A stretch of 52,303 bases of DNA from Bacteroidota bacterium (GTDB lineage: Bacteria; Bacteroidota; Ignavibacteria; Kapaibacteriales; UBA961), in the NCBI GenBank assembly GCA_020852855.1, contig JADZAA010000132.1, positions 1 to 52,303 on the forward strand, given 5' to 3'. A model generated the notes under the pieces. It made no database searches, was not told the DNA's origin, and worked only from the letters and a program-made list of their open reading frames with translations. Made by a program: the position numbers and the translations under genes. Within the stretch, counting starts at the first letter, position 1; each line of letters opens with the position of its first letter. This document shows, piece after piece, positions 20,189-42,175 of this stretch.

Positions 20189-21301
20189 TCAGCCTGCGGC
20201 TGAAATATCTCGTAAACACGAACAAATATACGAGATTTGCTCGTCGGTTAAATTGTACGATGAAGGCAAATACAATCCGTCGCGCCAAAGCCGTTCCGCC
20301 GTAGGGCAAGAGATTTCTCGTCGGCCTTTAATATCTTTGAAACACGGCTGAATATTCATCGGACAGAAAAACGAGCGCGTTTCTATTCCGCACTCTTGCA
20401 GTTTTTGCATAACTGCATCACGCGGCACACCAAACTCTTCGCCTATTACAATTCCGTACATCCAATACACGTTTCGCGCCCAAGGCAATTCGGAGGGTAA
20501 TTGCAAACCCGGTACGCCAGAAAGTTGCTCGGAATATCGGCTGGCTACGTCGCGCTTTAAGGCTATTAATTCTTCGATTCTTGCTAATTGTGCAATGCCC
20601 ATAGCCGCCTGATAGCCGGTCATGCGAAAATTAAATCCGGCTTCTTGATGCCAAAATCGCGGCTTGGTAAAAGCAAGATTGCGCAACAAGCGTAATTTTT
20701 CGGCGTAAGTATCGCTGTTGGTGCATATCATTCCGCCTTCGCCGGTAGTGATAATTTTATTCGCATAAAAACTGAAACAATTCATATCGCCGAAACTGCC
20801 CGTGGTGCGCCCGCGGACAGTTGCGCCGTGCGACTCGGCACAATCCTCTATAACCGTCAGGCCATACTTCTGCGCGATAATCATAAGTGCATCCATATCA
20901 ACGGGATGTCCGAATAAATGCACGGGAATTATCGCCTTGGATCGCGATGTAATCAGCGACTCTAAAACGCCAAGGTCAAGATTCCACGTTTCGGATTCGG
21001 AGTCCACCGCCACAGGAACAGCGCCGTTATGATAGGCGGCAAGTCCGGTGGCTATATTTGTAGAAGCACTTACCAATACTTCGTCGCCTGTGCCTATACC
21101 GGCCGCGCGAACCGCAAGATGCAATGCGGTAGTTCCGCTTGTAACGGCTATAGCGTGGCGAACGCCTATGTATTCAGCGAATTTTCCTTCAAATTCCGGA
21201 ATAAATTTTCCGAAAGAGCCGCTGATTTCGCCGCGTCGCAACGCTTCGGTTACAAGTGCGATTTCTTCATCGCCGATTATGGGTTCAAATACGGGAATCA
21301 T
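20189..21301 (-). CDS. DegT/DnrJ/EryC1/StrS aminotransferase (perosamine-synthase-like)
   Basis: This PLP-dependent enzyme aminates a nucleotide-linked keto-sugar for surface glycans. The N-terminus IPVFEPIIGDEEIALVTEAL and the GKFIPEFEGKFAEYIGV motif are typical of the GDP-perosamine synthase branch. TSGTTALHLA binds the phosphate, DCAESHGA holds the PLP ring, and Lys182 in SFYANKIITTGEGG is the internal aldimine lysine. The length of 370 is normal. The sugar product cannot be told from sequence alone. The gene is separated by 150 bp from the P-type ATPase upstream. It may have its own promoter: CAAATATA on the plus strand at 21370-21377 reads TATATTTG on the minus strand. No other sugar-biosynthesis gene is adjacent. 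Confidence 0.9.
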   Translation of the reverse strand: MIPVFEPIIGDEEIALVTEALRRGEISGSFGKFIPEFEGKFAEYIGVRHAIAVTSGTTALHLAVRAAGIGTGDEVLVSASTNIATGLAAYHNGAVPVAVDSESETWNLDLGVLESLITSRSKAIIPVHLFGHPVDMDALMIIAQKYGLTVIEDCAESHGATVRGRTTGSFGDMNCFSFYANKIITTGEGGMICTNSDTYAEKLRLLRNLAFTKPRFWHQEAGFNFRMTGYQAAMGIAQLARIEELIALKRDVASRYSEQLSGVPGLQLPSELPWARNVYWMYGIVIGEEFGVPRDAVMQKLQECGIETRSFFCPMNIQPCFKDIKGRREISCPTAERLWRDGLYLPSSYNLTDEQISYICSCLRDISAAG

Positions 21302-34148: not shown

Positions 34149-34159
34149 TTCTGTGAAAC

Positions 34160-34164
34160 AGGAG
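34160..34164 (+). promoter_or_regulatory. Shine-Dalgarno site that fixes the TPR/LRR gene start
   Basis: AGGAG lies 6 nt before ATG 34171. It argues against the GTG at 34153 further upstream. Confidence 0.65.
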
Positions 34165-34170
34165 AAAAAT

Positions 34171-35091
34171 ATGTTTGCAAGAATTTTCACCGTTATTTTT
34201 ATCGGCCTGATAATATGCGGCTCGGCGCAGTCCGGCGAATTAGGCAAAAGATACTTGAAACTCGGCAATACTTACCGCGAATCGGGTAATTTCGACAAAG
34301 CCGAAGACTATCTGAAACAAGGCAAAAAAATGGTCGTCGGCGACGGCTATTGGTCGGCGGCCGGCGACGAATATTTGGGGTATTTATACCGCGATATGGC
34401 CGGCTCTGAAAATTACTCGTCAAATTCGCCGTATTTTCTTGCATTGGCAAAAGAATATTTCGAAAAAGCATTGTCCGGCTACCGAAAATACGTAAAGCAA
34501 CCCGACGGCAGTCCTTCGGCATTGCGCGGCTTGCAGGATAAAATCGTTGAAATAAACAGTATGATGGAGAATGTCGACGGAAATGCGTCGCCCGGTGCGG
34601 TATATGCGGTAAACGGCGGGAAAATAATTAATTACGATAATTCGAAGCTTAAAGGCATGCCCGATAATTTACCGATAAAAATGGAGAATTTCAGCGCGGC
34701 CAACAATCGTCTGAAAGAATTCCCGAGCATATTTTCCCGTTATACGAATCTTCAATTTATAAATCTGAAAAATAATCGTATATCAACGCTCGGCGCAGGC
34801 CTTGGCGATATAAAAAATCTGCGTGTACTTAATTTATCGGGCAACAGGATTAAAACTGTTCCCACTTCGGTTTCCTCGTTGAAGCAATTGGAGATACTTG
34901 ACCTTTCCAATAATAAATTACGCGAAATTCCAACTGCGGTAATATCTTTGCAACGCTTGAAAGTATTGGATATTTCGGGAAATAATATCCCTTTTTCGCA
35001 AATTTCCGTACTGATTAAAAATATGCCCAATACCAATATACTTTTCGACCGTTACATACGTGAAGAAAACGAGGACGAGGGCACTCCTTAA
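34171..35091 (+). CDS. Exported TPR and leucine-rich-repeat protein
   Basis: A signal peptide (MFARIFTVIFIGLIICGSAQS) precedes a TPR-like helical region (GNTYRESGNFDKAEDYLKQG; LAKEYFEKALSGYRKY) at about 25-130. Then about five leucine-rich repeats run from 165 to 290, for example LQFINLKNNRIST, LRVLNLSGNRIKTVP, LEILDLSNNKLREIP and LKVLDISGNNIPF. The cap is a short acidic tail (ENEDEGTP). LRRs form a curved protein-binding surface, so it may bind a partner outside the cytoplasm. The preceding gene, 22 bp upstream, is the obvious candidate, but that is inference. Its stop overlaps by 4 bp the stop of the convergent cupin gene. Confidence 0.8.
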   Translation: MFARIFTVIFIGLIICGSAQSGELGKRYLKLGNTYRESGNFDKAEDYLKQGKKMVVGDGYWSAAGDEYLGYLYRDMAGSENYSSNSPYFLALAKEYFEKALSGYRKYVKQPDGSPSALRGLQDKIVEINSMMENVDGNASPGAVYAVNGGKIINYDNSKLKGMPDNLPIKMENFSAANNRLKEFPSIFSRYTNLQFINLKNNRISTLGAGLGDIKNLRVLNLSGNRIKTVPTSVSSLKQLEILDLSNNKLREIPTAVISLQRLKVLDISGNNIPFSQISVLIKNMPNTNILFDRYIREENEDEGTP

Positions 35092-35507
35092 TTCTCTGTT
35101 TTTTTTGCCTCAACAAAAACTTTGTCGTTTTCCATGCCGAGATACGGGCCTTGTTTTACGCTGATGCACTGCATATCCTCGGTTACTCGAATGGCATGAA
35201 CACCGTGTATCAACACGATTCCGTCGCCGGTGCGCAACGTAATCTCTTCGAGCATTGTTCCGTCGTCTGCGTATAATTCCACCACTACTTCACCGCGTTG
35301 CACCACAAACATTTGTTGTAAATCGGCTATTTCGCGCTTGAACGGCTTGTGATAATGCGGCGGTTCGACGAAGCCGGCCTTATGCGCAAGCAAACCGAAC
35401 TGAAACGACGATTCGGCCGGTGAGAAGAAAGTTGTGTGTTCCACGCGAACGTCGGCGCGCAGCACTTCGGCATAGCGAATTCCGTTGTACTCAATGCTTT
35501 GTATCAT
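35088..35507 (-). CDS. Cupin-fold protein
   Basis: This 139-residue single-domain cupin has motif 1 in PPHYHKPFKREIADLQQMFVV (His residues in HYH and a later Glu) and motif 2 in LIHGVHAIRV. It keeps possible metal ligands and resembles cupins found next to sugar and glycan genes. Some of those are isomerases or epimerases and others sensors; the reaction cannot be told here. Its ATG overlaps the stop of the large glycosyltransferase-methyltransferase gene as ATGA (35504-35507), so translation is coupled and the two proteins probably act together. Confidence 0.75.
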   Translation of the reverse strand: MIQSIEYNGIRYAEVLRADVRVEHTTFFSPAESSFQFGLLAHKAGFVEPPHYHKPFKREIADLQQMFVVQRGEVVVELYADDGTMLEEITLRTGDGIVLIHGVHAIRVTEDMQCISVKQGPYLGMENDKVFVEAKKTEN

Positions 35508-38473
35508 TTTATCTCCACGAGAGTTAAATGGCCGATTACTGAAAATTGCGCTTCGGGTGTTCCGTAACGAAAGCGCGGTTTAGCTGAATAATACGCTTCG
35601 GCGGGCTGAATCTCGCGCAGAACGCCTTGCGCCGCGTCCTCGCGAACAAAAAAAGCGTTGTAGCCGTTTGAATCGCAACCGGCAAGAATATATCCTTTTC
35701 GCCGCATTAGTTTGGTAAGTGCCGTAAGCGACGCGCCGTGATACCAACCGCTTTTATGATAATTCATTCGGTAAAATTCCGGGTCGTAAGGAATGGTAAC
35801 GGAGCGTTCGGGACCGAACGACGGATTATATTCCAAAATCACAATGCGGGGATTTATGACATTTACGCGATCCATTATCCAATAATCATTGCCGTCAATA
35901 TCGAGCGAAAATACGTCAAGTGCGCCCGTGTATTTATTTTGCAGGAATAATTCATTGACATTATCGAGCGTAATAAAACATTGCTCTACGCGAATATTTT
36001 TCAAATGAGCGTAAAATCGGCGCGCTGCTTCTACTTGCTGCATATTTCCGTCAATCAACAATCCGCTCCAATTATGATTTATTGCAAGATTAGCCGTATT
36101 ACATTCGTCGCCGTTGCCGATTCCTATTTCTACAAAACGCTTATTTGTAATTCCTATCCGTGAAAGTATTCCCATTAAAATTCCGTCTTCTCCGCTCTGC
36201 GAATATATTTTAAATTCAAAATTTCCCAGCATTTTAATTTGATTTTCGGCATTTGCTTCCACGTCGGCCGCCGCACTTTCGATAAACGGCTTTATTGCAC
36301 GCGAAGCCATTGCAGCGGCATATAATGCCTGCTGATTATGCGGCGCAACTTTCAGTTCGCCGGAAAGTGCCGTAAATGCCTCGTCAATACGCCCAAGCCG
36401 CCAAAGACAAATTGAGCGCAAATATTGCGTGTTCGGCGTTTGCGAATATATTATCATACTCTCGTCCAGATGACTTAATGCGTCCACAAAATCGCCTTGC
36501 TGCATTAATTGTACGCCTTTTTGCATAAATTCGTCGGCACGACGTTGCAATATCTCAATCGGTTGCAATGTATGCGGATAGGGCGGTTGCGCTTGATTTT
36601 CCATAGATTTGTTTTGTTGCTTTTTCTCCGGCTCCTGTTTCCGAGATGTTTTATTACTGTTATCGTAGGAATTATTTTTGCCGAGATAATTTTTACGTAT
36701 GAAAACGAATGTTTTTTCAGAATAATCTTCCGTATTGCTTTCCACGATTACAAGCGTTTTTTCAAGTATAAATCCTTGCCGTAAAAATTCGTCCGATAAT
36801 TCCCGTTCGTTAAATATTAACTCGACTGTTTTCGTACCGTAAGCCTGCTTTTTAAGAAATTGCGTGGGGCGTACAGCACATAGCGGCGTTCGGTGCAAAA
36901 TCACCCGATTGTCGGCTACGCGGCAGGTTTCGGCTATATGCGCCGCGTATTCTACTGCATACAGCAATACTCCTGCCGAAAACACAACATCAAAAGCGCG
37001 GTCGGCAAACGGAAGCGATGCGCCGTCGGCTGTAATAAATTCCGAATTCGGATAATAATCGCGTGCCATTGCAATGAAATCCGGCGAAATATCCACACCG
37101 CAATATTGCATCTTTTTTTGCGTAAGATATTCCAAAACTTCCGCGTAATATCCGCTCGAGCAGCCGATTTCCAATATTTTCAGTCCGTTACGTGCAATTC
37201 CGACAAAAGCATCTGCGGCAATTTTATACGGCATCGGAACAATGCCGCGATACATATCGGCAAGTTCTTTTTGCGTAAGTGCGCGTTGCTTCGGCGGTAT
37301 GTCCTTGTCAAGCCAGCCGCTACGCAACTCGTTCGTAATATCGGACTTGTCTATGATTTTATGTCCGCTTGAAATATCTGTCGGCGATATTCCCTCAAAA
37401 AGCGATTTTTCGCGCTTGTATCGTAAATGACGCTCTAACCATTCTGCCGTTTGCTTCATGCGAACAGCATAAGTATGCTCGGTGAGTGTGCGCTTTTGCC
37501 CGGCAATAGCGATTTGTGAAGCTTCGTCTGGGTGCGCTTCATAATAGGCTGTCAGCTCGGCACATTCTTCGGGTGAATTGAAAACGGCAACTTCTTTATT
37601 CGGCGTAAAAAGTTCTGCCAAATTTTCTTTTGCATCGGTCAGCAGCAAAGCTCCGCACCCTGTAGCCTCGAAAAGCCGCATATTATTCGCATAATTTTGC
37701 GCAACGCTTACAATATGCCGATTTACCGTGATGCGCGAGCGTCTGAATATGTCGAACATATCCGAACCCCAGGCTTCTCCGTGATGTTTGGAACGTATTA
37801 CTGAATCCGGCGGTAAAATTTCCGAACCATAACCCCAAAAATCTGTATTCGTATTTCGGGCTATATATTCGAGCAATTTGTCGGCTTCTTTATGCACTTG
37901 CGAAAATCCGCCTACGAAACTGCAATTTATATCGCGCTTTTTCGGCGACGAAGTTTCCGTTAAAATTCGCGATTCGAAGGCGAGCGGCTGATAATAAACC
38001 GCAACACCAAGCGTACGGAAACGTTCAACATAATGCGGAAGCGAAGAAATTAAAATATCGAAACCGGAAAAATGCGCTGTTGCCGGAATTGGCGAGGCAT
38101 GCTGTCCCGCTATTATTTTTACATACGGCCGAATAGCGGCGATAAATTCCCGTGAAGCGATGGAAGTATCTTGAAAATAAACCACATCGGGCTTTTTCGC
38201 AATAATTTGCGCAACTGCCGTATTCAGACCTTGCACATTTACGCAATTTTCCTTAGCCCAAGCACTCTGCAAAGGCGCGGCGTTTATAATTGCATCTTCG
38301 GTTTCCCAGCCGGCTGTTGCCAAATTATAAGAATAATAATCGCTGTCGCCAAAACGCGCACCGCATAGTGCGGCGAGCTGCTCGCGGTACGGTAATCTCA
38401 AAATATCGCGATTAGCATAAAAACTTTGCAGAAATGACGAGTAGTATTGATGCAAAAACAAGCACGAAGGCAT
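35504..38473 (-). CDS. Four-part fusion: CgeB-like glycosyltransferase, SAM methyltransferase, TPR, FkbM-type methyltransferase
   Basis: From ATG 38473 the product has 989 residues. Residues about 1-350 are a GT-B glycosyltransferase of the CgeB/DUF3880 type (DVVYFQDTS, CSFVGGFSQVHKEADKLLEYI, NMRLFEATGCGALLLTDAKENLAELF). About 420-590 form a class I SAM methyltransferase (LKILEIGCSSGYYAEVLEYL, YCGVDISPDFIAMARDYYP, FDVVFSAGVLLYA). A polar Gln/Lys/Asn linker (about 610-645) leads to TPR helices (about 650-740). The last 230 residues resemble FkbM-family methyltransferases (SQSGEDGILMGIL, FVEIGIGNGDECNTANL, DVFSLDIDGNDYWIMD). It probably assembles and methylates a surface glycan in the cytoplasm. 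The frame is open throughout, so the fusion is not a sequencing join. A candidate TATCTTTG box lies upstream. Confidence 0.85.
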   Translation of the reverse strand: MPSCLFLHQYYSSFLQSFYANRDILRLPYREQLAALCGARFGDSDYYSYNLATAGWETEDAIINAAPLQSAWAKENCVNVQGLNTAVAQIIAKKPDVVYFQDTSIASREFIAAIRPYVKIIAGQHASPIPATAHFSGFDILISSLPHYVERFRTLGVAVYYQPLAFESRILTETSSPKKRDINCSFVGGFSQVHKEADKLLEYIARNTNTDFWGYGSEILPPDSVIRSKHHGEAWGSDMFDIFRRSRITVNRHIVSVAQNYANNMRLFEATGCGALLLTDAKENLAELFTPNKEVAVFNSPEECAELTAYYEAHPDEASQIAIAGQKRTLTEHTYAVRMKQTAEWLERHLRYKREKSLFEGISPTDISSGHKIIDKSDITNELRSGWLDKDIPPKQRALTQKELADMYRGIVPMPYKIAADAFVGIARNGLKILEIGCSSGYYAEVLEYLTQKKMQYCGVDISPDFIAMARDYYPNSEFITADGASLPFADRAFDVVFSAGVLLYAVEYAAHIAETCRVADNRVILHRTPLCAVRPTQFLKKQAYGTKTVELIFNERELSDEFLRQGFILEKTLVIVESNTEDYSEKTFVFIRKNYLGKNNSYDNSNKTSRKQEPEKKQQNKSMENQAQPPYPHTLQPIEILQRRADEFMQKGVQLMQQGDFVDALSHLDESMIIYSQTPNTQYLRSICLWRLGRIDEAFTALSGELKVAPHNQQALYAAAMASRAIKPFIESAAADVEANAENQIKMLGNFEFKIYSQSGEDGILMGILSRIGITNKRFVEIGIGNGDECNTANLAINHNWSGLLIDGNMQQVEAARRFYAHLKNIRVEQCFITLDNVNELFLQNKYTGALDVFSLDIDGNDYWIMDRVNVINPRIVILEYNPSFGPERSVTIPYDPEFYRMNYHKSGWYHGASLTALTKLMRRKGYILAGCDSNGYNAFFVREDAAQGVLREIQPAEAYYSAKPRFRYGTPEAQFSVIGHLTLVEIK

Positions 38474-38527
38474 AATAAATCCAGAATATAGGCTATTATT
38501 GGCCGAAGATAGATATAGAACACATTG

Positions 38528-38535
38528 CAAAGATA
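38528..38535 (-). promoter_or_regulatory. Candidate -7 box for the glycosyltransferase-methyltransferase/cupin operon
   Basis: The minus strand reads TATCTTTG, an exact TAnnTTTG, 55 bp before ATG 38473. It excludes the longer frame start at 38530. No -33 TTG at the best distance; one with a 14-bp spacer exists. Confidence 0.42.
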
Positions 38536-38980: not shown

Positions 38981-40594
38981 ATGAATCGCAGAATGTTTCT
39001 GACCATGCAACGCAAAAAAGATGCTTTCGGCGATGGGCTTGTGCAAGAAGCCGCCGAGCCGCGCTTTGCACAGCGCACGTCCGCAGGCTTGCAACCGTAT
39101 GTTCCAAGCAAGGACAATCCGTGGGACTATTCCAAAGCCGCTCACTTATTGCGCCGATGCGTTATAGGCGCGACCGATGCAGAAATACGCGAGGCTGTTG
39201 CCACAGGATTAGACTCTACGCTTGCCAAACTTTTCAAGCCGTTTACACCCGACGTTTCGGAAATAGCTGACGTAACGGTAAAAGATGTCCGCATACGTCC
39301 TGATTCTGCCGCCGACCAAAAGGCATTTCAAGACTTGGTTAATGCAAGACAGAATAAACTGCTGCGCTGGTGGCCTAAAATTACGGTCAATGCGCCCTTG
39401 TCATTGCAAGAAAAACTGACCATATTCTGGCATGGCCATTTTACAAGCGAGATTAGCGTTGTGCATCTTGCCGAATATATGCTTGTGCAGAACCAAACAT
39501 ATCGAAAGAATATGCTTGGCGATTTCAAGCAATTCGTAAAAGAAATGTCCATTGACCCGGCAATGCTGATTTATTTGGACAATATCAAGAACTATAAAGC
39601 CGGAAGAGCCAAGCAAATCAACGAAAACTTTGCCCGCGAGCTGATGGAACTGTTCACTTGCGGAATTACGGATTGGGATAATAATCCGAATTACACGCAA
39701 GACGACGTACATGAGGGTGCGCGCTCTCTAAGCGGCTGGACTATTGCGCCAAGCTTGCAAGGTGCTGCATTCCTTGGTACAACCGGTTTATTTATCGAAT
39801 CTCGTTGGGATGCCGACAGCAAAACATTTATGGGGCAAACCGGTCAATTCAAGGCATTCGACGTTATAGACATTATTTTCGACAAGCGCGGCGATGAAGT
39901 TGCAAAATTTATTTGCGAAAAAATCTACCGTGAATTTGTTTATTTCATTGCCGACAGAACCATTGTGGAAGGAATGGCGCAAACCTTTGTCAACAATAAT
40001 TGGAACATTCGTGCTGTTATCGAGCAACTTTTGCGCAGCGAACACTTTTTTGACATTGCCAATATCGGTGCGCGGCAAAAAAGTCCGGCGGAATATATGC
40101 TCGGAATTATTCGCGGCTGGGGAATTACTTCCGTGCCGGATTTTCAATTATCGCAAACCGGAGGCGCGTATCAAGATTTGTTGGCTCGTATGATGGCTTT
40201 GGGGCAAACGCTGTTCAATCCGCCTGACGTAAAGGGCTGGCGCGGCGGGCGCACTTGGATAAGCGTGTCGACACTTCCGCCGCGTCAAAAATTCGCGCTC
40301 AACGTAATAGACGGTATAATAAAAATCCGGAACACGCCTGCGTATGTATTTGACGCACTTGAATTTGCCAAAACATTTCCAACGCCGGACGATGCCAAAA
40401 AACTTTGCGCCGATATGTCGCAATTTCTATTGAACATTACGCCGTCGGCCAAGGAGTCTGCCATGCTTTTGGATACATTGCTTGACGGCGCACCTGTTTA
40501 TGAATGGGATATTAACGACCCGTTATTTGCCCGTCCGCGCATACGCAAGTTTATGAAAGCTGCCGTCCAATTATCTAAGTTCCAATTATTCTGA
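38981..40594 (+). CDS. DUF1800 family protein
   Basis: The 537-residue protein carries the DUF1800 signature: AAHLLRRCVIGATDAEIREAV near residue 50, LQEKLTIFWHGHFTS, LGDFKQFVKEMSIDPAMLIYLD, NENFARELMELFTCG, and LFNPPDVKGWRGGRTWIS. The family is of unknown function and nearly always precedes a DUF1501 gene, as here (33-bp gap). The N-terminus (MNRRMFLTMQRKKDAFGDG) does not look like a Sec or Tat signal peptide, so export would need the partner or is absent. A strong SD precedes the ATG. The two proteins are thought to work together in some secreted or surface process; that is inference from constant linkage. Confidence 0.9.
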   Translation: MNRRMFLTMQRKKDAFGDGLVQEAAEPRFAQRTSAGLQPYVPSKDNPWDYSKAAHLLRRCVIGATDAEIREAVATGLDSTLAKLFKPFTPDVSEIADVTVKDVRIRPDSAADQKAFQDLVNARQNKLLRWWPKITVNAPLSLQEKLTIFWHGHFTSEISVVHLAEYMLVQNQTYRKNMLGDFKQFVKEMSIDPAMLIYLDNIKNYKAGRAKQINENFARELMELFTCGITDWDNNPNYTQDDVHEGARSLSGWTIAPSLQGAAFLGTTGLFIESRWDADSKTFMGQTGQFKAFDVIDIIFDKRGDEVAKFICEKIYREFVYFIADRTIVEGMAQTFVNNNWNIRAVIEQLLRSEHFFDIANIGARQKSPAEYMLGIIRGWGITSVPDFQLSQTGGAYQDLLARMMALGQTLFNPPDVKGWRGGRTWISVSTLPPRQKFALNVIDGIIKIRNTPAYVFDALEFAKTFPTPDDAKKLCADMSQFLLNITPSAKESAMLLDTLLDGAPVYEWDINDPLFARPRIRKFMKAAVQLSKFQLF

Positions 40595-40614
40595 CACCGC
40601 ATAATTTGTATAAA

Positions 40615-40620
40615 AAGGAG
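40615..40620 (+). promoter_or_regulatory. Shine-Dalgarno site of the DUF1501 gene
   Basis: AAGGAG lies 7 nt before ATG 40628. Confidence 0.65.
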
Positions 40621-40627
40621 TAGCGCA

Positions 40628-42175
40628 ATGAAACGCAGAACTTTTATTCAGAAATTGGCCGCAACCGGAATGATATTGCCCATGGCTATGGGATTCCCGC
40701 GCCTGCGAGCATTCGCACAACCGCCGGAAAATTCGCCGTTTACCAAATTGGCCGCTGCCCAAAGCGACCGTATTCTCATCATTATCCGTATGGCCGGCGG
40801 AAATGACGGGTTGAATACGATTGTACCTTATACGAACGCTGCCTATTACGCGGCACGCAGCGAAGGTGCGGTGTCAATAGCAGAGAATGAAGCGGTAAAG
40901 CTTCCCGGATCCGATACACTTGGGTTGCATCCCGAACTTTCACCGCTAAAACAGCTTTTTGAGGAGAAAAAACTTGCAATAGTGCAAAATGTAGCCTATC
41001 CGAATCAAAATTTATCGCATTTTCGTTCTACCGATATTTGGCTTTCCGGGTCAGATGCCAATGTATATTCGCAGGCGGGCTGGTATGCAAAATATCTCGA
41101 GGAGATTTATCCAGATTATCCTGATACATTGCCCGCTATGCCGTTTGCCATCGAGCTTGGAACATATCTGAGCACGACGCTAATCGGCGAAAAAAATAAT
41201 ATGGGCATAGCGATTACAGACTTAAGTTATGTGCCAGGAATGCCGGACAGCGACCATTTGGCCGATAATCACGAAGGCGATGAAGAAAAATACGTTCGTG
41301 AAATAATGCGTCAGACTAACGTTTTCTCTAATTCTATTATAGCGGCAGCGATAAAGCAAAGCACAAACAAAGCGGTTTATCCTACAGGCAATAAGTTGGC
41401 AGATGCACTTGCCGCCATTGTAAGAGTAATTGCAGGCGGGCTTACTACGCAAATGTATATCGTGAATGTAGGCGGCTACGACACGCACTCGTCGCAACTT
41501 GTGCAACAAGCCAATTTGCACAAGCAATTTGCCGAAGCATTATTGGCATTTCAGCGCGACATCGAGGCATTCGGTCTGGATAAGCGAATCGCGCTAATGA
41601 CTATCAGCGAGTTCGGTCGCCGTGTTGCTTCAAACGGAACAGGTACCGACCACGGGGCTGCTTCGCCGATTTTTGCGCTCGGAACAAGCGTAAACGGCGG
41701 ATTCTACGGGCGCGAGCCAAATCTCGAAGACCTTGACAATAACGGAAATTTGAAAATGGAATATGATTTCCGACAATTGTATGCTTCCGTCCTAAGCCAA
41801 TGGTTCGGTGCTGCCGACTCGGAACTAACGCCGGGACCATTACCGCGCACATTCGCGCAGCTGCCTGTTTTTCAACGCTTGGCAACCGGCGCGAACGAAA
41901 GCGGCACTTTCGCGGCAAACGGATTGTCGTTAGGACAAAATTATCCAAATCCTGCTATTGCGGAAACCATAATTCCTTTCGAGGGCATTGGACCGAATAT
42001 TATCGCGACATTGACTATCTCTACAATCGAAGGGCGTGAAATTTTACGCGAGCAACTTACGTCGGGGCAAACTGCGCTTCGTATAGACGTTCGCAAAATG
42101 CCTGCCGGAGCATATATTTATGAAATTCGTAACGGCTCGGCACGAATTACACGCTCTATGACCGTGCTTCGATAG
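40628..42175 (+). CDS. DUF1501 family protein with Tat-like signal and T9SS sorting domain
   Basis: The N-terminus MKRRTFIQKLAATGMILP is a twin-arginine-type signal, with cleavage expected after AFAQ. The DUF1501 core belongs to the alkaline-phosphatase-like sulfatase superfamily and shows GGNDGLNTIVPY, SHFRSTDIWLSGSD, GYDTHSSQ and ISEFGRRVASNGTGTDHG. From about residue 430 a type IX secretion type A sorting domain begins (LGQNYPNPAIAETIIPF) and ends with AGAYIYEIRNGSARITRSMTVLR (key residues G, Y, I and the final LR). The protein should cross the inner membrane folded and then be placed on the cell surface by T9SS. It follows the DUF1800 gene by 33 bp. A dispersed repeat with a hairpin begins 12 bp after its stop. 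Confidence 0.9.
   Translation: MKRRTFIQKLAATGMILPMAMGFPRLRAFAQPPENSPFTKLAAAQSDRILIIIRMAGGNDGLNTIVPYTNAAYYAARSEGAVSIAENEAVKLPGSDTLGLHPELSPLKQLFEEKKLAIVQNVAYPNQNLSHFRSTDIWLSGSDANVYSQAGWYAKYLEEIYPDYPDTLPAMPFAIELGTYLSTTLIGEKNNMGIAITDLSYVPGMPDSDHLADNHEGDEEKYVREIMRQTNVFSNSIIAAAIKQSTNKAVYPTGNKLADALAAIVRVIAGGLTTQMYIVNVGGYDTHSSQLVQQANLHKQFAEALLAFQRDIEAFGLDKRIALMTISEFGRRVASNGTGTDHGAASPIFALGTSVNGGFYGREPNLEDLDNNGNLKMEYDFRQLYASVLSQWFGAADSELTPGPLPRTFAQLPVFQRLATGANESGTFAANGLSLGQNYPNPAIAETIIPFEGIGPNIIATLTISTIEGREILREQLTSGQTALRIDVRKMPAGAYIYEIRNGSARITRSMTVLR

Follow-up and report, generated by a model that had tools for sequence, protein, structure and literature searches.

A predicted glycosyltransferase-methyltransferase fusion with an overlapping cupin gene in a genome of the Kapaibacteriales (Bacteroidota)

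The window, that is, the whole stretch of DNA that was analysed (52,303 nucleotides; contig JADZAA010000132.1 of assembly GCA_020852855.1; Bacteroidota, Ignavibacteria, Kapaibacteriales, UBA961), carries on its minus strand an open reading frame at 35504-38530, in which the ATG at 38473 gives a protein of 989 amino acids. The junction with the following cupin gene reads ...GAG ATA AAA TGA; the cupin ATG lies inside the ATGA at 35507-35504, and the two genes overlap by 4 bases at the fusion stop codon. The frame of 989 codons, the motifs EIGCSSGYY and FVEIGIGNGDE, and the cupin start in ATGA at 35504-35507, all reported in an earlier note made from the letters alone, were borne out by the sequence. 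The coordinates of the features are listed in Table 1. The genes neighbouring the fusion are housekeeping or unrelated, and the window was on these grounds ruled out as a glycan gene cluster.

Table 1. Features of the fusion, the cupin and the detached aminotransferase gene in the window.
Feature	Coordinates	Strand	Basis
Whole fusion protein, 989 aa	35504..38473	-	Orthologues in three genomes (L010-L012)
CgeB-type glycosyltransferase domain (predicted), residues 1-370	37364..38473	-	PF13524, 8.9e-35
First class I SAM methyltransferase domain, residues 401-590	36704..37273	-	Methyltransf_25, 5.1e-16; Methyltransf_11, 1.9e-15
Polar linker, residues about 591-640	36554..36703	-	About 30% identity to orthologues; low pLDDT
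TPR-like helices, residues 641-740	36254..36553	-	TPR_19 below cut-off; 57-59% identity to sister genus
FkbM-like methyltransferase domain, residues 741-989	35507..36253	-	PF05050 subthreshold; class I methyltransferase fold in model
WbuC-like cupin, 139 residues	35088..35507	-	TIGR04366, 7.1e-7, subthreshold; cupin model
DegT aminotransferase, detached partner of the cupin	20189..21301	-	PF01041, 4.2e-116; 72% to the sister gene following the cupin

The N-terminal part of the fusion is predicted to be a sugar transferase of the CgeB type, since PF13524 was found well above its Pfam cut-off (120.2 against 25 bits; residues 200-342); it shares 53-54% identity with the proteins of a sister genus and 35-46% with stand-alone or differently fused relatives. 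The DUF3880 label (PF12996) given to it in the earlier note did not hold (12.4 bits; Pfam cut-off 25.2). The first methyltransferase domain, with EIGCSSGYY at residues 435-443, matched Methyltransf_25 at residues 433-519 (59.6 bits; Pfam cut-off 27). The FkbM-like domain, with FVEIGIGNGDE at residues 780-790, scored 20.0-21.1 bits for PF05050 (residues 779-928), below the Pfam cut-off of 22.7; the sister-genus protein exceeded this value (25.3 bits), and the family was found at E≤0.01 in nine of 11 relatives. No solved structure was related to it by sequence. In the AlphaFold2 model, which covers the C-terminal half of the fusion only, the domain forms a block with a pLDDT of mostly 90-98 and a class I SAM-methyltransferase fold, and the best Foldseek matches were SAM methyltransferases, headed by the N-terminal domain of EvdMO1 with bound SAH. 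The fusion thus contains two separate methyltransferase domains, as had been claimed. The TPR region is modelled as helices (pLDDT about 45-80); the best TPR score was that of TPR_19 (21.3 bits; Pfam cut-off 25; residues 656-723), and no repeat passed. The proposed order of glycosyltransferase, class I methyltransferase, linker and FkbM-like methyltransferase stands, with the TPR as its weak member, and so does the coupling to the cupin.

The whole chain was found in three of 60 related genomes, all belonging to one sister genus (G002, G005 and G008), at 56% identity. The FkbM-like domain was the most conserved part (68-70%) and the linker the least (about 30%), the flanks of the linker showing 47-70%; high conservation of the domains against low conservation of the linker is expected of separate domains on a flexible tether. 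A frameshift or an assembly join in the linker near 36.6 kb, the artefact that the earlier note had named, was ruled out, as the chain runs unbroken there in three other assemblies. The cupin gene adjoins the fusion gene in all three sister-genus assemblies, and its product is 80-82% identical to the window cupin. The co-occurrence of the two genes, checked over 61 genomes (the window's own and the 60 relatives), was complete: the cupin accompanies the fusion in exactly four genomes and is absent from the other 57. No further full-length chain was detected among 395 sampled genomes of the phylum, in 85,000 genomes scanned with exact peptide patterns (an insensitive method), or in IMG/VR.

The sister-genus fusion is longer, about 1269 residues, due to an extra methyltransferase ahead of the glycosyltransferase, and the window's genome contains neither this domain nor a remnant of it. 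A chain from another family of the class (L207) starts with the same N-terminal methyltransferase (60% identity). The domain was gained or lost in one lineage, and its presence in L207 favours a loss in the lineage of the window.

An operon of the sister genus starts with the fusion, which is followed by the cupin, a DegT aminotransferase, a TylM1-like N-methyltransferase, a glycosyltransferase and a double glycosyltransferase (the G008 contig stops within the first glycosyltransferase). Each of the six has a counterpart in the genome of the window, where they are scattered over the window contig and two others. The cupin and the DegT aminotransferase genes lie 14 kb apart, the N-methyltransferase counterpart is on contig C122 (49% identity), and the two glycosyltransferase genes correspond to one ORF of 1282-1286 aa on contig C128 (65% and 50%). 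Genomes of two further genera of the family (G001 and G003), which have neither the fusion nor the cupin, are also without the first operon glycosyltransferase. The retention of all parts after they moved apart is evidence of a shared function, and the fusion is accordingly not the 'self-contained enzyme' suggested earlier. It is highly improbable that the window copy is a decaying, non-functional remnant: such a remnant would have lost the N-terminal methyltransferase and the operon, and the former is indeed absent and the latter scattered, but the 989-codon frame is open with all motifs kept, the FkbM-like domain and the cupin retain the identities given above, and all partner genes are preserved as open frames.

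The best PDB match of the DegT aminotransferase was perosamine synthase (3bn1, 1.9e-90), with QdtB at 2.5e-59; aminotransferases of 3- and 4-amino sugars are indistinguishable by sequence (PMC8944477). The methyltransferase of the sister operon matched sugar N,N-dimethyltransferases of the TylM1/DesVI type (3bxo, 8e-9; 3pfg, 6e-8), including dTDP-3-amino-3,6-dideoxyglucose N,N-dimethyltransferase.

The window cupin had no Pfam match and no profile match in the PDB. Its nearest model was TIGR04366 (WbuC), at 29.2 bits and thus under the curated cut-off of 42, yet all 12 cupins tested matched this model (best 5.1e-9); nothing specific on WbuC function was found in the literature searched. PF05523 (FdtA/QdtA) matched neither the window cupin at E≤1 nor the 12 relatives at E≤0.1. 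The predicted structure (pLDDT 81) shows the double-stranded beta-helix of cupins, and its Foldseek matches were generic (quercetinase, RmlC and others, the WlaRB ketoisomerase 5tpu being one among many). Residues H51, H53 and H104, like the KQGPY motif, do not vary among the 12 cupins, as is typical of an active site. Of the metal site HxH...E...H, the three histidines are kept, and the glutamate, present in distant relatives, is replaced by Gln65 in the clade of the window.

Outside the window's genome, 22 cupin loci were collected at E≤1e-13: three from the sister genus, eight from the phylum, seven from IMG/VR and four from proteobacterial plasmids. The set includes near-duplicates, for example L089/L090 and L057/L058; another four plasmid matches were left out. 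On annotated plasmids, the cupin relatives carry the label hypothetical protein. An aminotransferase gene lies directly downstream of the cupin in all 22 loci, and a TylM1-like N-methyltransferase is encoded nearby in 18. Three weak cupin relatives (L054-L056, E 4e-4 to 9e-4) have no aminotransferase beside them and appear by eye closer to WbuC. A GDP-mannose 4,6-dehydratase gene directly precedes the cupin in L077 and occurs elsewhere on the stretch in L083 and L211, the latter also having GDP-fucose synthase and mannose-1-phosphate guanylyltransferase genes on either side of the cupin-aminotransferase pair; L086 contains a dTDP-glucose 4,6-dehydratase in place of the GDP enzyme. The dehydratase was rejected as an indicator of the nucleotide, because GMD and RmlB are both encoded in the genome of the window and in its relatives.

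These loci tie the cupin to the aminotransferase rather than to the fusion. Between the two roles offered in the earlier note, isomerase or sensor, they favour the former, and a place in amino-sugar synthesis is most likely for the cupin, which would take the step immediately ahead of the aminotransferase, either as 3,4-ketoisomerase or as an accessory to transamination. The cupins FdtA, QdtA and Tyl1a are 3,4-ketoisomerases that shift the keto group from C4 to C3 ahead of transamination. Together with FdtB/TylB and TylM1, they form the same set as the cassette, i.e., cupin, aminotransferase and N,N-dimethyltransferase; they differ in that the window cupin lacks a PF05523 match and the cassette aminotransferase is nearest to GDP-perosamine synthase. 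Direct 3,4-ketoisomerase activity on some nucleotide sugar is a tentative assignment, plausible but short of probable; no similarity to known ketoisomerases was detected in the cupin sequence, and the structural match is a generic one. Rather unlikely is a non-catalytic cupin (a chaperone, regulator or sensor) beside an aminotransferase that makes a perosamine-type sugar by itself, the product then being N-methylated. The Gln at residue 65 in place of the usual metal-ligand Glu would suit such a protein, as would the nearest PDB match of DegT, since perosamine synthases require no isomerase (PMC8944477). However, the invariant residues resemble an active site, in every other locus of clear similarity the cupin directly precedes DegT, and the known ketoisomerases at this step are themselves cupins.

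According to a 2022 review, no 3,4-ketoisomerase for GDP-4-keto-6-deoxymannose has been identified, and attempts to make GDP-mycosamine in vitro with no enzymes besides the dehydratase and the synthase did not succeed (PMC8944477). The cupin might be this missing enzyme, in which case the cassette, common to bacteria and phages, would yield a GDP-mycosamine-type N-methylated 3-amino sugar, and the fusion would be its dedicated transferase-methylase; we regard this specific version as unlikely. The dTDP dehydratase of L086 and the presence of both enzymes in the window's genome are compatible with either nucleotide.

Parts of the fusion also occur as separate genes. In L198-L203, two adjacent genes encode the glycosyltransferase (35-43%) and, in the order of the fusion, the first methyltransferase (34-41%), and in L200-L202 a methyltransferase weakly matching the sister-genus N-terminal domain (about 1e-10) lies just ahead of this module. 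A head-tail adaptor gene in L201 and a major tail protein gene in L203 beside the module identify these contigs as phages. The same gene order in split form suggests that the fusion probably joined parts already lying together as a cassette. On its own, the FkbM-like family gave matches on 205 IMG/VR stretches, several of which adjoin GDP-mannose 4,6-dehydratase. A Rhizobium sp. WYJ-E13 plasmid encodes a glycosyltransferase with the same class I methyltransferase behind it (42% over residues 10-602, in two pieces), as does Azospirillum sp. TSH58 (WP_247874362; 29% over residues 7-572); no FkbM-like domain of the window type was found in either, and the TSH58 protein ends in a different methyltransferase. 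Two chains from this bacterial class, L207 (MTase-GT-TylF-MTase) and L208 (GT-FkbM-MTase), are put together from similar building blocks, but in another order, with other methyltransferase families and no cupin seen alongside. The literature searched held nothing specific on CgeB-methyltransferase-FkbM fusions. The fusion is thus of a known kind, the modular glycosyltransferase-methyltransferase enzymes, with a new chain order; the order noted earlier as unusual is so, but it is not isolated, given the other mixtures in the class and the split version on phages.

A precedent for a TPR-bearing transferase is FlmG of Caulobacter, which, like the fusion, has TPR and glycosyltransferase parts in one chain and whose TPR part alone binds flagellins (PMC7591256); its domain order is opposite to that of the fusion, and it has no methyltransferases. 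Could the fusion be a protein glycosyltransferase of this kind, in which the TPR recognises a cytoplasmic protein acceptor, the glycosyltransferase adds a sugar and the methyltransferases finish it? The TPR-like helices within the chain and the homologous modules among the virion genes of L201 and L203 are consistent with it. Nevertheless, the TPR of the fusion is small and below every cut-off, no acceptor gene adjoins the fusion among the unrelated neighbours in the window, and several relatives lie in polysaccharide clusters with glycosyltransferases and ABC transporters; this function is distinctly unlikely.

On balance, the fusion is moderately likely to be a multi-domain glycan-building enzyme in a scattered six-gene pathway of a methylated amino sugar, in which the fusion transfers a sugar and methylates, and the cupin, DegT and TylM1-like enzymes make the sugar. 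Transfer and methylation remain the best reading of its predicted domains, in agreement with the earlier note. The protein is probably cytoplasmic. The cupin and the DegT aminotransferase would convert a 4-keto-6-deoxy sugar nucleotide to an amino sugar, the amine of which would be methylated by the TylM1-like enzyme. The CgeB-type domain would transfer a nucleotide-activated sugar onto a growing glycan or protein acceptor, the two attached methyltransferase domains would methylate the product (probably by O-methylation), the TPR may serve to bind the acceptor or a partner, and the other glycosyltransferases would extend the glycan. Besides the points on the cupin and the nucleotide given above, these observations speak against the pathway: the C122 counterpart of the N-methyltransferase is just 49% identical, the genes in the window's genome are not in one operon, and a few CgeB relatives fused to methyltransferases have no cupin seen beside them (L208).

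Taken together, the fusion, its split phage version and the sister-genus operon name one glycan-pathway gene set at four places in the genome. The cupin-aminotransferase cassette is the most valuable lead; it gives a concrete and cheap test of the missing GDP-sugar 3,4-ketoisomerase (PMC8944477).

The last four bases of the cupin gene were overlapped by the convergent TPR/leucine-rich-repeat gene, and the second protein of the DUF1800/DUF1501 tandem carried a Por secretion tail. Elsewhere in the window's genome, the orthologues of two separate glycosyltransferase genes were fused in one frame. At L207, a locus from another family of the same class, two giant chains adjoin.

Features near the fusion and cupin, and long chains elsewhere
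Feature	Location	Remarks
Protein with TPR and leucine-rich repeats	window 34153-35091	convergent with cupin
DUF1800 and DUF1501 proteins, tandem	window 38981-42175	divergent from fusion
Fused glycosyltransferase frame	G000:C128:5602-9441 (L218)	1282-1286 aa
TPR and radical-SAM-like protein with methyltransferase-like part	L207:3314-6718	methyltransferase-like part by eye
MTase-GT-TylF-MTase chain	L207:6725-10465	1246 aa

The FkbM-like family, with the motifs SQxGEDG and DIDGNDY, matched 205 viral stretches in the IMG/VR search; among the 80 fetched (L118-L197), about 13 had a GDP-mannose 4,6-dehydratase within 4 kb. No PHROG matched the FkbM-like domain of the window. The cupin-aminotransferase-N-methyltransferase cassette was also present in the IMG/VR loci L087, L089, L090 and L092. 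Since these contigs are classed as viral, bacterial viruses may produce their own modified amino sugar.
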